DNA of 35,308 nt from a virus. The notes under the pieces were generated by a model. That model saw nothing but the letters and a program-made list of their open reading frames with translations. It made no database searches and was not told the origin of the DNA. The first letter of the stretch is position 1; every line of letters begins with the position of its first letter. This document shows positions 2,595-26,133 of the stretch, one piece after another. The position numbers were made by a program, and so were the translations under genes. The DNA lies in IMG/VR virus record IMGVR_UViG_3300024940_000006, positions 1 through 35,308 of that record, one strand, 5' to 3'.

Positions 2595-3145
2595 TACATC
2601 ACCTGATTTGGCACATTAACTGTGCCGCCTTGAGGGTCGTTATGCGTATGGTTGTTATAGGTGTTGCGCATACCACTCATGGTCTTGCCTGATGTATCGC
2701 AGCGATCTTTAATCTCGCCGGTAACCTCTAGCTCTGTTTCCATTCGCACCTTGGGAGTATTGGTGATGGTTACTTGCTTGCCTGCGCCATCAACAACAAT
2801 ACCATTGCGGGTGATATGCACTTTTTGCCCTTGGTCGTCATACAGTGCAGATTCACCCGGGGCGAGGTTTTTCAGTCGGTAACTCCCATGCTCCGTAGCA
2901 ATTAAAATGCCATGTGCGGTGCTGCCTCCAACGGGTAATACCACCAGCATGGCGCCAGGTGGAGGGCTGCTGGTAAGCCCGTAGTGCTGAAAATACTCAG
3001 TAGCTTGTAGTTGCTCACCATTTAAACCATCACCCTGCACCAGCATGACCGCAGGTGCTGTATTCACATGGCGGACCACACCACGAAAAGCCAGGCGAAT
3101 TGAGCCTAATGCGCGCCGGATTCGTTTGTCGATTTGCGCGATCAT
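2594..3145 (-). CDS. Mu gp45-like baseplate spike protein (phage_base_V)
   Basis: The product is 183 residues. The N-terminal OB-like region (RRALGSIRLAFRGVVRHVNTAP, then VQGDGLNGEQLQATEYFQHYGLTSSPPPGAM) is typical of Mu gp45, the trimeric central spike that pierces the outer membrane. The C-terminus becomes beta-helical, with a repetitive run (VHITRNGIVVDGAGKQVTI) and a final HTHNDPQGGTVNVP tip. HxH motifs at such tips bind iron in Mu gp45 and related spikes. The gene overlaps gp44 by 4 bp. Confidence 0.9.
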   Translation of the reverse strand: MIAQIDKRIRRALGSIRLAFRGVVRHVNTAPAVMLVQGDGLNGEQLQATEYFQHYGLTSSPPPGAMLVVLPVGGSTAHGILIATEHGSYRLKNLAPGESALYDDQGQKVHITRNGIVVDGAGKQVTITNTPKVRMETELEVTGEIKDRCDTSGKTMSGMRNTYNNHTHNDPQGGTVNVPNQVM

Positions 3146-23093: not shown

Positions 23094-23493
23094 TGCTTGC
23101 CTTTGGTTTAGCTTGTTGCTTTTTAACCAGCGCTGCAATAATGCCGCGCATCTCGGCCGGCTTGCACCATTGCAACTTTTCACGTTTGTACATTTGCTTG
23201 GCAATGCCATCTGCATAAGGCCAGCTCAGTTGCATATCAGCCAGCAACGCGCCAATCTTGCTGATCAACGCCTGCTTGGCCTTGGCGACATCTGGCGCGG
23301 TTTGCGTATTCTTCCATCCACGCGCTTTCATGTGGTTGAGCACAGCAACGCGGCCTGCATAATCCAGCTCACGGCTACTGGTGACACGTGCCACGGTAAA
23401 CAACATGGAGCGATAGGTTTCATCATCCATACCCAGCGCTTTTTTAGCGATGTGGATCATCGCCAATTCAGAGTTTCTGATATCAGGCTTCAC
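23086..23493 (-). CDS. gemA: GemA-like regulatory protein (DUF1018, Mu gp16)
   Basis: The 135-residue product starts at a GTG (23493) with AAAGG six bases upstream, overlapping the RT stop. Family blocks are IHIAKKALGMDDETYRSML (about 13-31), ARVTSSRELDYAGRVAVLNHMKARGW, and LQWCKPAEMRGIIAALVKKQ. In Mu, GemA modulates host gene expression and DNA topology. It is normally next to mor, and here the DGR has been inserted directly before it. Confidence 0.9.
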   Translation of the reverse strand: MKPDIRNSELAMIHIAKKALGMDDETYRSMLFTVARVTSSRELDYAGRVAVLNHMKARGWKNTQTAPDVAKAKQALISKIGALLADMQLSWPYADGIAKQMYKREKLQWCKPAEMRGIIAALVKKQQAKPKASNG

Positions 23494-24853
23494 ATTTAGC
23501 CTTTCTGTATATCTTTGTTAAATCCTTGTTAACGCAGTAACCTTTGCCACGCATAACATTAGCAATAGTTGCGCGGTCTTGATGGCTACTGGATGCTTGT
23601 CCAATTAGTCCAAAGTAGCTATTTGCTACTTCAAATAACTTATCTTTCTTTGTAGCGTTAATTCGGCTTACTGCCTCATTAACAGTGCGTTTGCGTGTAT
23701 ATCTATTCCAAGGTTTAATCACTTGGCCTACAAAATCCACCCCACGATCAACAGGCTGCAGGATTGTTTTCTTTGGATTTAGCCTGGCATTTAATTTATC
23801 TTGCAAGAAAGCATTAATTTCAATCAATGCAGCATTAAGCCATTGTGGTGATTCATGCAGCAGAATGAAGTCATCTACGTAGCGCACATAATGCTTTGCA
23901 CCTATCTTGTGTTTGATAAATTGGTCTAGATCATTCAGATAGACGTTGGCAAAAAACTGTGAGCTAAGATTGCCAATTGGCAAGCCTAAATGGCTTGGTT
24001 GTTCGGCTAAACGCTTATGTTCTGGCACTAAATTCAGCTTGGTTGCTTCACCACGTAACTCATAGTTTTTGCGTGGATCGTGAAACAAGATTAAATCGGC
24101 TAGTGACAACCACCAAGGCTCATGTATCTTCTTTGCAAGCTGCTTGTGTAATACGTTCTTATCGATGGCCACAAAGAAGTTGGCTAGGTCACCCTTTAGA
24201 TAAAACGTTGGCTTGCTCCAGTTTTGAGTAGCGCTGCGTATCTTTTTTTCTAGCCTTTTTACGGCATACAGCGTGCCACGTTCGGGTATGCATGCGCAGC
24301 TGTCTGCGATAAATGATGCATAAAACCTAGGTGAAACGTGGTTATAAAATAGATGGTGGACGATGCGATCTCTAAAATCTGCAGCCCACACTTCACGTGG
24401 CTTTGGCCTCGTGATAACAAAGCAAATGCTTTTACCTGGCAAATATGTGCCAGATTTTATGTCTGTATATAAATCAAACAAATTGCGCTCTAGATTCAGT
24501 TCAAAAGCTAGAGCGCTCTCTGAGTTTCGTTTGTGTTTTCTGCAATCAAAGTACGCTTGGACTAATTCTGCAAACGTAAAGTTGTCGTTATGATCTGCGG
24601 ACAGCGCGAGCGCGGAGCTCGCTAGACTTGTTATTGTTGTTCTGGTTTCCATTATTGAAGTTCTGATACCAAGCCCAGCCTGCTGTATTTTGCTATCTAC
24701 GTCATCTTGTCGAAGGGCTGTATTTAAATCAGCACCGATCAACGAGGCAACTGCGTTAGACCTAACCTGATTCCTATCAGTGGTATCTACGATGCGCATG
24801 GCGGTGACCTTTTGAGTCAGCGGCAAAACCAGATTATTAAATCGTTCAGTCAT
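23483..24853 (-). CDS. DGR reverse transcriptase
   Basis: The product has 456 residues. RT motifs are visible: motif A GDLANFF (Asp222), LPIGNLSSQFFANVYLNDLD (291-310; the LPIGN-x2-SQ block is typical of DGR RTs), catalytic YVDD at 325-328, LNPKKT at 359, then a C-terminal thumb-like region (VNSYFGLIGQ… in part). The ATG at 24853 has AAGG seven bases upstream and follows avd by 13 bp. The template repeat encodes residues about 57-87 of the frame, so the RT core begins right after it (NFTFAELVQAYFDCRKHKR). There is no later ATG before the core except one inside the template repeat. The stop overlaps the gemA start. It copies template RNA with errors at adenines to diversify the target genes. 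Confidence 0.94.
   Translation of the reverse strand: MTERFNNLVLPLTQKVTAMRIVDTTDRNQVRSNAVASLIGADLNTALRQDDVDSKIQQAGLGIRTSIMETRTTITSLASSALALSADHNDNFTFAELVQAYFDCRKHKRNSESALAFELNLERNLFDLYTDIKSGTYLPGKSICFVITRPKPREVWAADFRDRIVHHLFYNHVSPRFYASFIADSCACIPERGTLYAVKRLEKKIRSATQNWSKPTFYLKGDLANFFVAIDKNVLHKQLAKKIHEPWWLSLADLILFHDPRKNYELRGEATKLNLVPEHKRLAEQPSHLGLPIGNLSSQFFANVYLNDLDQFIKHKIGAKHYVRYVDDFILLHESPQWLNAALIEINAFLQDKLNARLNPKKTILQPVDRGVDFVGQVIKPWNRYTRKRTVNEAVSRINATKKDKLFEVANSYFGLIGQASSSHQDRATIANVMRGKGYCVNKDLTKIYRKAKCEA
24594..24683 (-). repeat. DGR template repeat (TR), 90 bp
   Basis: Read on the minus strand in the target frame it encodes AGWAWYQNFNNGNQ and then a run of Asn, followed by KSSELRARAVRR; the Asn codons (AAC/AAT) are the mutable sites. 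The 34 bases at the low-coordinate end are identical to both variable repeats. It lies inside the RT reading frame, where it is read in another frame. In the target frame it is flanked by stop codons, so it is not itself a target gene. Confidence 0.95.
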
Positions 24854-24866
24854 AGGGCCTTAACCT

Positions 24867-25217
24867 TTATGAAACAGACGATGCGGAGCGGCGCCAACCA
24901 TTGGCTTGCTTGCCAATACTACCTGTCAACTCAATGGCCTTAGCATATTGGCCTGTTGAGATTAAACGCTTGTCGCGTGAAAGTCTTAATAGCAATTCGC
25001 ATACTTGAAGTCGCTCTATAAGCGAGATTAAATATCCTGACTTTTCACGTGAGACGTTAGCCCTAAATATCAAAGTGACAATCTCAACGCATTCATCACG
25101 TAGTTTTCCGCCTATGCTTTGTTTAAAATCACGTGGCATATTCTTGGCAAGGTCAGTGATGACATCGAGTAAATCGTATGCCACTTTGTAAATAGGTAAG
25201 GTAGTGTGATTGGCCAT
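24867..25217 (-). CDS. avd: Avd, DGR accessory variability determinant
   Basis: This 116-residue helical protein is of the four-helix-bundle (S23-like) type. It has LPIYKVAYDLLDVITDLAKNMPRDFKQSIGGKLRDECVEIVTLIFRAN, then SLIERLQVCELLLRLSRDKRLIS, and a basic C-terminus (GKQANGWRRSASS). Avd forms a pentameric basic barrel that binds the RT and template RNA and is needed for retrohoming. It lies between target 1 (13 bp) and the RT (13 bp), the classic DGR position. No clear ribosome-binding site is seen, so coupling to the upstream gene is likely. Confidence 0.92.
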   Translation of the reverse strand: MANHTTLPIYKVAYDLLDVITDLAKNMPRDFKQSIGGKLRDECVEIVTLIFRANVSREKSGYLISLIERLQVCELLLRLSRDKRLISTGQYAKAIELTGSIGKQANGWRRSASSVS

Positions 25218-25230
25218 AAAAATAAATAAA

Positions 25231-25701
25231 TTACTGAATTACTGATAATCTGCGGACAGCGCGAGCGCGGAGCTCGCTAGACTTGTTAGTGTAGTGCTGG
25301 GCCCCATTACCGAAGCCCTGAGACCAAGCCCAGCCTGCATTGTTAGCATGTGTTTCAGATGACCAATAAGCCTCTTCTTTAAACTCATCTTTCATAAATT
25401 TATAGAGCATGGCTTGCTCACATCTGTCTGGCAGATGCCCGCCAATACTTTCTGCCCAAGCGACTTGATCACTCCAGCTTGCGCGCTCACTTTCACCTGG
25501 CAACAAAATAGTATGCTCAGCTTTAAGGCCATCAGCACTAATCATGCAGCCAACCCACTTTTCGCCATCGTTAAGATCAGGCATTGATACTGAAATTGGG
25601 AATGCATTCTCAATTAACTTGCCTGATTCATACCGTGCAATCATGCTTTGCAGTTTGTTTTGCTGGCTTTTAATTTCTTCTAATGTGATTGTTTGTGACA
25701 T
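25231..25701 (-). CDS. DGR target protein 1 with C-type-lectin-like variable domain
   Basis: The product has 156 residues. An N-terminal helix (TITLEEIKSQQNKLQSMIARYESGK) is followed by a DUF1566/FGE-sulfatase-like C-lectin fold (EHTILLPGESERASWSDQVAWAESIGGHLPDRCEQAML … EEAYWSSE). The C-terminal variable repeat encodes residues 122-151 (AGWAWSQGFGNGAQHYTNKSSELRARAVRR). Compared with the template, residues 127, 129, 131, 134, 136, 137 and 138 have been changed. The final SSELRARAVRRL strand is intact. No signal peptide, lipobox or membrane helix is present. It is unlike tail fibres in size; the ligand is unknown. Confidence 0.92.
   Translation of the reverse strand: MSQTITLEEIKSQQNKLQSMIARYESGKLIENAFPISVSMPDLNDGEKWVGCMISADGLKAEHTILLPGESERASWSDQVAWAESIGGHLPDRCEQAMLYKFMKDEFKEEAYWSSETHANNAGWAWSQGFGNGAQHYTNKSSELRARAVRRLSVIQ
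25249..25338 (-). repeat. DGR variable repeat VR1, 90 bp
   Basis: It is the same length as the template repeat. By direct base comparison it has 11 substitutions, every one at a template adenine (coding strand), and none at C, G or T. The last 34 bp are identical (initiation-of-mutagenic-homing type end). The stop codon of target 1 lies just beyond. Confidence 0.95.
25261..25277. other. Hairpin GCGAGC-N5-GCTCGC in the conserved end of VR1 (also in VR2 and TR)
   Basis: A perfect 6-bp inverted repeat with a 5-nt loop lies inside the conserved 34-bp end (also at 25761-25777 and 24606-24622). Hairpins close to the variable repeat are known to assist target recognition in some DGRs. Here it is inside the repeat and not after it. 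Because it is also in the template, it cannot by itself distinguish template from target. Confidence 0.5.
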
Positions 25702-25720: not shown

Positions 25721-26089
25721 CTAAATAATTGAATGACTAAATAGGAACTCTGCGGACAGCGCGAGCGCGGAGCTCGCTAGACTCGAGATAGTGTTGTACT
25801 GGTAGCCATTAGTGAAGCCCTGAGACCAAGCCCAGCCTGCTTCTCTTTCATGCGTAGTATTTGACCAGTACCAATCTTTCTTGAATTGGCCTCTGCTTTT
25901 ATCAAACATTAAAACCTGTTCTACACGGTTTGGCAGGTCTCCGCCAAGTTGTTTTGCCCAGTCCATAGCGTCTTGCCAATTGCCATCATCTTTATCGCCT
26001 GGCAGTAAAATTGAGTGCTCACCAGTACCGTCTGGATTGATAATCGCGCCTAAATACACTTCACCTTCTTTTAACTCTGGTTGCTGCAT
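25721..26089 (-). CDS. DGR target protein 2, frameshifted inside its variable repeat
   Basis: The product is 122 residues from ATG 26089 (MQQPELKEGEVYLG), seven bases after AGGAG; an ATG two codons earlier is too close to that site. It has the same fold as target 1 (EHSILLPGDKDDGNWQDAMDWAKQLGGDLPNRVEQVLMF … DWYWSNTTHEREAGWAWSQGF) without the N-terminal helix. In the variable repeat 2 extra nucleotides after the mutable codons change the frame. The normal …SSELRARAVRR end is replaced by SSLASSALALSAEFLFSHSII. Without the 2 nt the gene would end …RRVPI at a TAG (25737-25739). The present protein probably misfolds or lacks the last strand. Confidence 0.88.
   Translation of the reverse strand: MQQPELKEGEVYLGAIINPDGTGEHSILLPGDKDDGNWQDAMDWAKQLGGDLPNRVEQVLMFDKSRGQFKKDWYWSNTTHEREAGWAWSQGFTNGYQYNTISSLASSALALSAEFLFSHSII
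25749..25840 (-). repeat. DGR variable repeat VR2, 92 bp (2-nt insertion)
   Basis: It has nine clear substitutions relative to the template, all at template adenines. Where the template has aacaag before the conserved tctagcgag, VR2 has atctcgag, 2 nt longer. The 34-bp conserved end is identical to the template and VR1. Confidence 0.93.
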
Positions 26090-26133
26090 CTTCATTCTCC
26101 TTTTAAATAATCACGGGCGTTAAAACCATCCCC

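Follow-up and report, generated by a model that had tools for sequence, protein, structure and literature searches.

RT-15 RNA and template repeat inside the reverse transcriptase reading frame of a widespread clade of phage DGRs

In phage DGRs of the clade that carries the RT-15 structured RNA (Rfam RF03018), this RNA and the template repeat (TR) behind it lie at the 5' end of the reverse transcriptase (RT) reading frame, an arrangement that is real and clade-wide. A single segment probably serves there both as template RNA and as 5' RT coding sequence, with translation beginning at an ATG within RT-15. The DGR mechanism is understood mainly from BPP-1, where template RNA and RT message occupy distinct stretches. 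A widespread clade whose template RNA doubles as RT coding sequence, with its structured RNA on the opposite side of the TR, would provide a testable contrast with BPP-1 and poses the questions of how cDNA is primed without a 3' spacer and whether translation and copying compete.

In the arrangement that we propose, avd, RT-15 RNA, TR and RT follow one another, and one transcript segment would have two roles, template RNA and 5' RT coding sequence. Ribosomes would most likely initiate at an RT-15 ATG (24853, in hairpin P1, or 24799) and pass through RT-15 and the TR, so that the RT would carry a disordered tail, about 90 (or 74) residues long and of unimportant sequence, ahead of the enzyme proper, which begins at residue 93. 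Relatives that have lost the RT-15 frame would begin translation at an ATG within the TR. We infer both that the frame is actually translated and which start codon is used. Translation and copying of a given RNA would presumably exclude each other in time, and the ATG-bearing hairpin could modulate this; that translation and template copying are coupled is a hypothesis.

Locus anatomy and the RNA 5' of the template repeat

The window (the whole 35,308-nucleotide stretch analysed, a phage record) carries on its minus strand, in this order, target 2, target 1, avd and RT. The RT open reading frame (23483-24853, minus strand; 456 aa; PF00078, 9.6e-15) is unbroken from the ATG at 24853 to the stop at 23483-23485. 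The enzyme is a DGR-type RT for which BPP-1 bRT is the best match both by sequence and by fold (8ub7 for the RT model). It is folded from about residue 93, where the match to 8ub7 (3.3e-38) also begins, and contains an IGNLSSQ motif that is invariant among relatives. The accessory gene avd (24867-25217, minus strand) matches PF22296 (bAvd) over the cut-off (2.3e-14) and NF033474 with 52.6 bits, under the cut-off of 80.

The TR (24588-24683, minus strand), whose bounds were set by adenine-tolerant alignment to both VRs, is identified by adenine-specific mismatches: VR1 (25243-25338) differs from it at 12 TR adenines and 1 position elsewhere, and VR2 (25742-25841) at 11 positions, all adenines, together with inserted bases. 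As read from these alignments, the variation at VR adenines is the trace of a predicted mutagenic retrohoming activity. Both target genes were delimited by TR/VR alignment. Target 1 (25231-25701, minus strand) holds VR1 and is Lcl_C-like, a possible C-type-lectin-like variable domain, scoring 29.6 bits, below the Pfam cut-off of 34.9; target 2 (25721-26095, minus strand) holds VR2. As an earlier sequence-only reading had proposed, the RT frame from ATG 24853 runs through the TR in a frame other than that of the targets, target codon position 3 corresponding to RT codon position 2. The TR supplies RT residues 57-89. The TR ends 7 nt ahead of the RT core, and in the window no in-frame ATG, GTG or TTG lies between the two (core at residue 92), again as that reading had stated; it had passed over two further in-frame ATGs, one at 24799 and one, 24652, within the TR.

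Also overlooked was the nature of residues 1-57, which correspond to the RT-15 structured RNA (24681-24883, minus strand; cmscan 135.1 bits against a gathering score of 82, E 2.3e-31), which covers the final codons of avd and reaches as far as the beginning of the TR. The full model is matched above the gathering score in the window and in all relatives, and in every relative examined except one (L093) the RNA stands in direct line with TR and RT. Two-sided changes occur in 30 of the 46 consensus pairs (43 sequences), indicating that the stretch is under RNA selection. The Rfam entry describes RF03018 as an sRNA gene, whereas in the window it sits 5' of a DGR TR and, among relatives, mostly in the RT frame. 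A reading of residues 1-57 as a new N-terminal protein domain was considered and rejected: they have no Pfam match, are encoded by RT-15 itself, show no codon periodicity and are predicted to be disordered, and relatives differ in the frame of the RT-15 5' motif, all three being represented. The first ~90 RT residues should not be read as a protein domain.

An unpaired, near-invariant RT-15 motif, AAUCUGG (24829-24835, minus strand), can form 5 bp with the conserved TR 3'-end CAGAU (24588-24600, minus strand). Such a pairing might bring the TR 3' end to RT-15.

Frame and sequence constraint across relatives

Relatives were collected from two IMG/VR scans, one GTDB genome scan and one phage-record search, giving, with the window, 81 non-redundant loci whose upstream sequence was long enough; nearly all have TRs with almost only adenine mismatches. 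TR and RT core share one frame in 79 of the 81. The distance from TR end to core is 18, 21, 24, 27, 30, 33 or 39 nt, always a multiple of three, through about 15 inferred length changes. In 55 loci, including the window, the frame is also open from a start codon in RT-15, and 24 have a closed frame, interrupted either in RT-15 or near the TR start. The claim that the TR is translated as part of the RT thus stands as far as the shared frame and its exclusively in-frame indels go, and has to be narrowed in that not every locus has a start ahead of the TR. Stops or frameshifts before or inside the TR, named beforehand as evidence against the overlap, do occur in these 24 relatives; each of them has a start codon in frame within the TR (in 23 an ATG, the only one there), so that the 3' part of the TR is still translatable.

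Among the open-frame loci, stops within RT-15 are found in the RT frame of 2 loci and in the other two frames of 55 and 53, counts that are not independent across loci, since conserved RNA letters fix many of the stops in those two frames. Closed-frame loci have RT-frame stops across RT-15 in 21 of 24 cases. Where the frame is open, the 17 inferred changes in RT-15 length are mostly multiples of three. The loci are related by descent, so all such counts overstate significance; the open or closed state has changed about five times on the RT tree. An open frame alone is moreover little proof of translation, since L106, a phage locus of BPP-1 type, likewise has an RT frame without stops across its TR, and its RT is annotated as starting only behind the TR; what exceeds chance here comes from the relatives. 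Stop avoidance within the TR, assessed by synonymous resampling of the target frame, gave 0 stops against 5.8 expected under a null that fits badly (30 seen against 50 expected in the third frame), and is not relied on. On this frame comparison, translation probably includes at least the 3' part of the TR, as an RT leader, throughout the clade.

The RT start is placed after the TR in two exceptions. In L084 the TR lies in a different frame and an ATG stands 12 nt before the core. In L093 about 1 kb separates the TR from the RT core (at 3001), the interval holding a putative C5 DNA methyltransferase-like gene (read from translation) behind which the RT ATG lies. The L093 RT has no TR-encoded leader and a conserved core, which suggests that the leader is dispensable.

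Frame conservation is not accompanied by conservation of residues. Substitutions in RT-15 are spread evenly over the RT codon positions (0.16/0.16/0.18), against 0.14/0.10/0.43 in the core (independent pairs). In TR plus spacer RT position 2 changes fastest; in the target frame this is the third, silent position. The spacer alone is flat. In the RT model, residues 1-109 fall below pLDDT 50 and the first helix begins at 94; the leader is predicted to be disordered. Flat periodicity in RT-15 and spacer together with the low-pLDDT residues indicates that the frame is maintained and its amino acids are not, as would be expected if the leader is translated and has no function of its own. The supposition that the overlap constrains the template in two frames finds no support at the amino-acid level, TR substitutions following the silent position of the target and RT-15 and spacer being without RT-frame periodicity; only avoidance of stops and frameshifts is left. 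A BPP-1-like spacer hidden in the start of the RT coding sequence was also sought and rejected, there being no strong depression of the synonymous rate. The rate in codons 102-111 (0.28 against 0.40 overall) is the lowest of 34 bins and too weak to claim.

Start codons and alternative readings

Three in-frame ATGs come into consideration in the window. The most likely RT start by comparison of relatives is the ATG at 24851-24853 (minus strand), in the 3' arm of RT-15 hairpin P1, whose equivalent is in frame in 43 of 55 open-frame and 0 of 24 closed-frame loci. An alternative, likewise from relatives, is the ATG of the CCATGCG motif in RT-15 (24797-24799, minus strand; in frame in 45/55 and 1/24, respectively), and the ATG at 24650-24652 (minus strand), inside the TR, is of the type remaining in closed-frame relatives. 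The ribosome-binding site of ATG 24853, described earlier as good, proved moderate: its anti-Shine-Dalgarno duplex has -3.4 kcal/mol against a background mean of -1.6, and ATG 24799 scores the same. TR ATGs of closed-frame loci have no Shine-Dalgarno site (mean -0.3 kcal/mol). Translational coupling through an upstream ORF in these loci was considered and dropped: in L047 and L057, though not in L055, the TR ATG is closely preceded by the end of an RT-frame ORF. Public annotations place the RT start at the CCATGCG ATG (Burkholderia phage Magia), inside the TR (Pseudomonas phage Cruim01), after the TR (Haboob) or inside the RT core (QDWS and LPPA56), an inconsistency that the arrangement explains.

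The Cruim01 annotation agrees with a reading in which the RT starts only inside the TR in all members (ATG 24652 or its equivalent), RT-15 being untranslated and its open frame a by-product of conserved RNA. RT-15 is indeed conserved as RNA without codon periodicity, and closed-frame members need a TR start if their start codon is canonical. We nevertheless hold this reading to be quite unlikely, because 7 open-frame loci have an in-frame start in RT-15 only and no TR start codon at all, the length of RT-15 in open-frame loci varies mostly in steps of three, presence of the P1 ATG goes with an open frame, and the TR ATGs of closed-frame loci lack Shine-Dalgarno sites. A start after the TR at a non-canonical codon, making the whole overlap an accident of annotation, we judge very unlikely. 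Homology to BPP-1 bRT does begin at residue 93, an ATG follows soon after the TR in L018 as in L084, and the L093 RT is set far from its TR; against this, the gap between TR and core has stayed in frame through all of its length changes with its residues unconserved, about 72 of the 81 loci have no ATG, GTG or TTG after the TR, and no consistent alternative codon is seen.

Translation from the RT-15 ATG, the reading that we prefer, is compatible with a regulatory switch in which the folded RNA acts as template and the unfolded RNA is translated. As such a switch would have it, the covarying hairpin P1 holds ATG 24853 in its 3' arm, and AAGG stands beside the ATG in loop and stem. However, closed-frame relatives retain the hairpin without the ATG while their VRs are still diversified, indicating that the hairpin is not there only for translation, and the 336-nt region of the window folds no better than shuffled sequences (z +1.2), so that a switch appears doubtful to us.

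Comparison with known systems

The DGR of BPP-1 (brt, avd, TR and Sp; RF03022, Phage_DGR) resembles that of the window in its RT family, avd and adenine-specific TR/VR changes; both have the order target-avd-TR-RT, and bRT is the closest solved structure. They differ in the placement of the RNA. In BPP-1-type phages the structured RNA stands on the 3' side of the TR, and in L106 the annotated RT comes after it; in the window the RNA stands on the 5' side and the TR is followed directly by RT coding sequence. No structured spacer RNA of BPP-1 type was found between TR and RT start in the window. L106 has its TR at 2684-2817, RF03022 at 2822-2954 and the RT ATG at 2962. Its RT frame is open for about 700 nt upstream, through the TR (2262-2962), with the annotated RT beginning after the spacer. 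The BPP-1 3' spacer folds, recruits bRT-Avd and primes cDNA (PMC12875486). Tentatively, the clade may have a permuted template RNA in which RT-15 does this job (RT-Avd recruitment and cDNA priming) from the 5' side, freeing the 3' side of the TR for RT coding; the RT start would then lie inside the scaffold, and folding and RT synthesis would be mutually exclusive. We regard this as possible rather than likely.

The DGRs of Bacillus phage BalMu-1 and Vibrio phage VHML are like the window in having a related RT and a TR upstream of it, and unlike it in that their RT frame contains stops between TR and RT. The RT-14 RNA (RF02921) lies 3' of the TR and is above threshold in BalMu-1 only, not in VHML.

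Overlap of a TR with the RT ORF is, as such, known since 2012: structural group 3 of DiGReF comprises TRs that overlap the end of the RT ORF (BMC Genomics 2012, PMC3521204), and the window belongs there, its TR overlapping the end of the annotated RT ORF. As far as consulted here, DiGReF classifies annotated ORFs and does not treat translation of the overlap or structured RNA (PMC3521204). In the openly readable literature we found no description of translation through the TR or RT-15 in DGRs, nor of frame conservation or of starts inside the TR.

Several smaller features of the locus were recorded. A scan of the window for promoters and terminators returned about chance numbers. An inverted repeat, GCGAGC-TCCGC-GCTCGC, lies within the 3' end of the TR (24606-24622, minus strand) and of both VRs; the BPP-1 hairpin sits downstream of the VR instead (PMC3240598). 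VR2 of the window has gained 2 nt relative to the TR in an AAC-rich stretch, which puts target 2 out of frame by 2 nt. The near-identical locus L001 (3014-3112) shows a premature stop together with an insertion close to that position, while the target of L007 keeps the frame. Dead targets may arise when copying slips on the AAC repeats.
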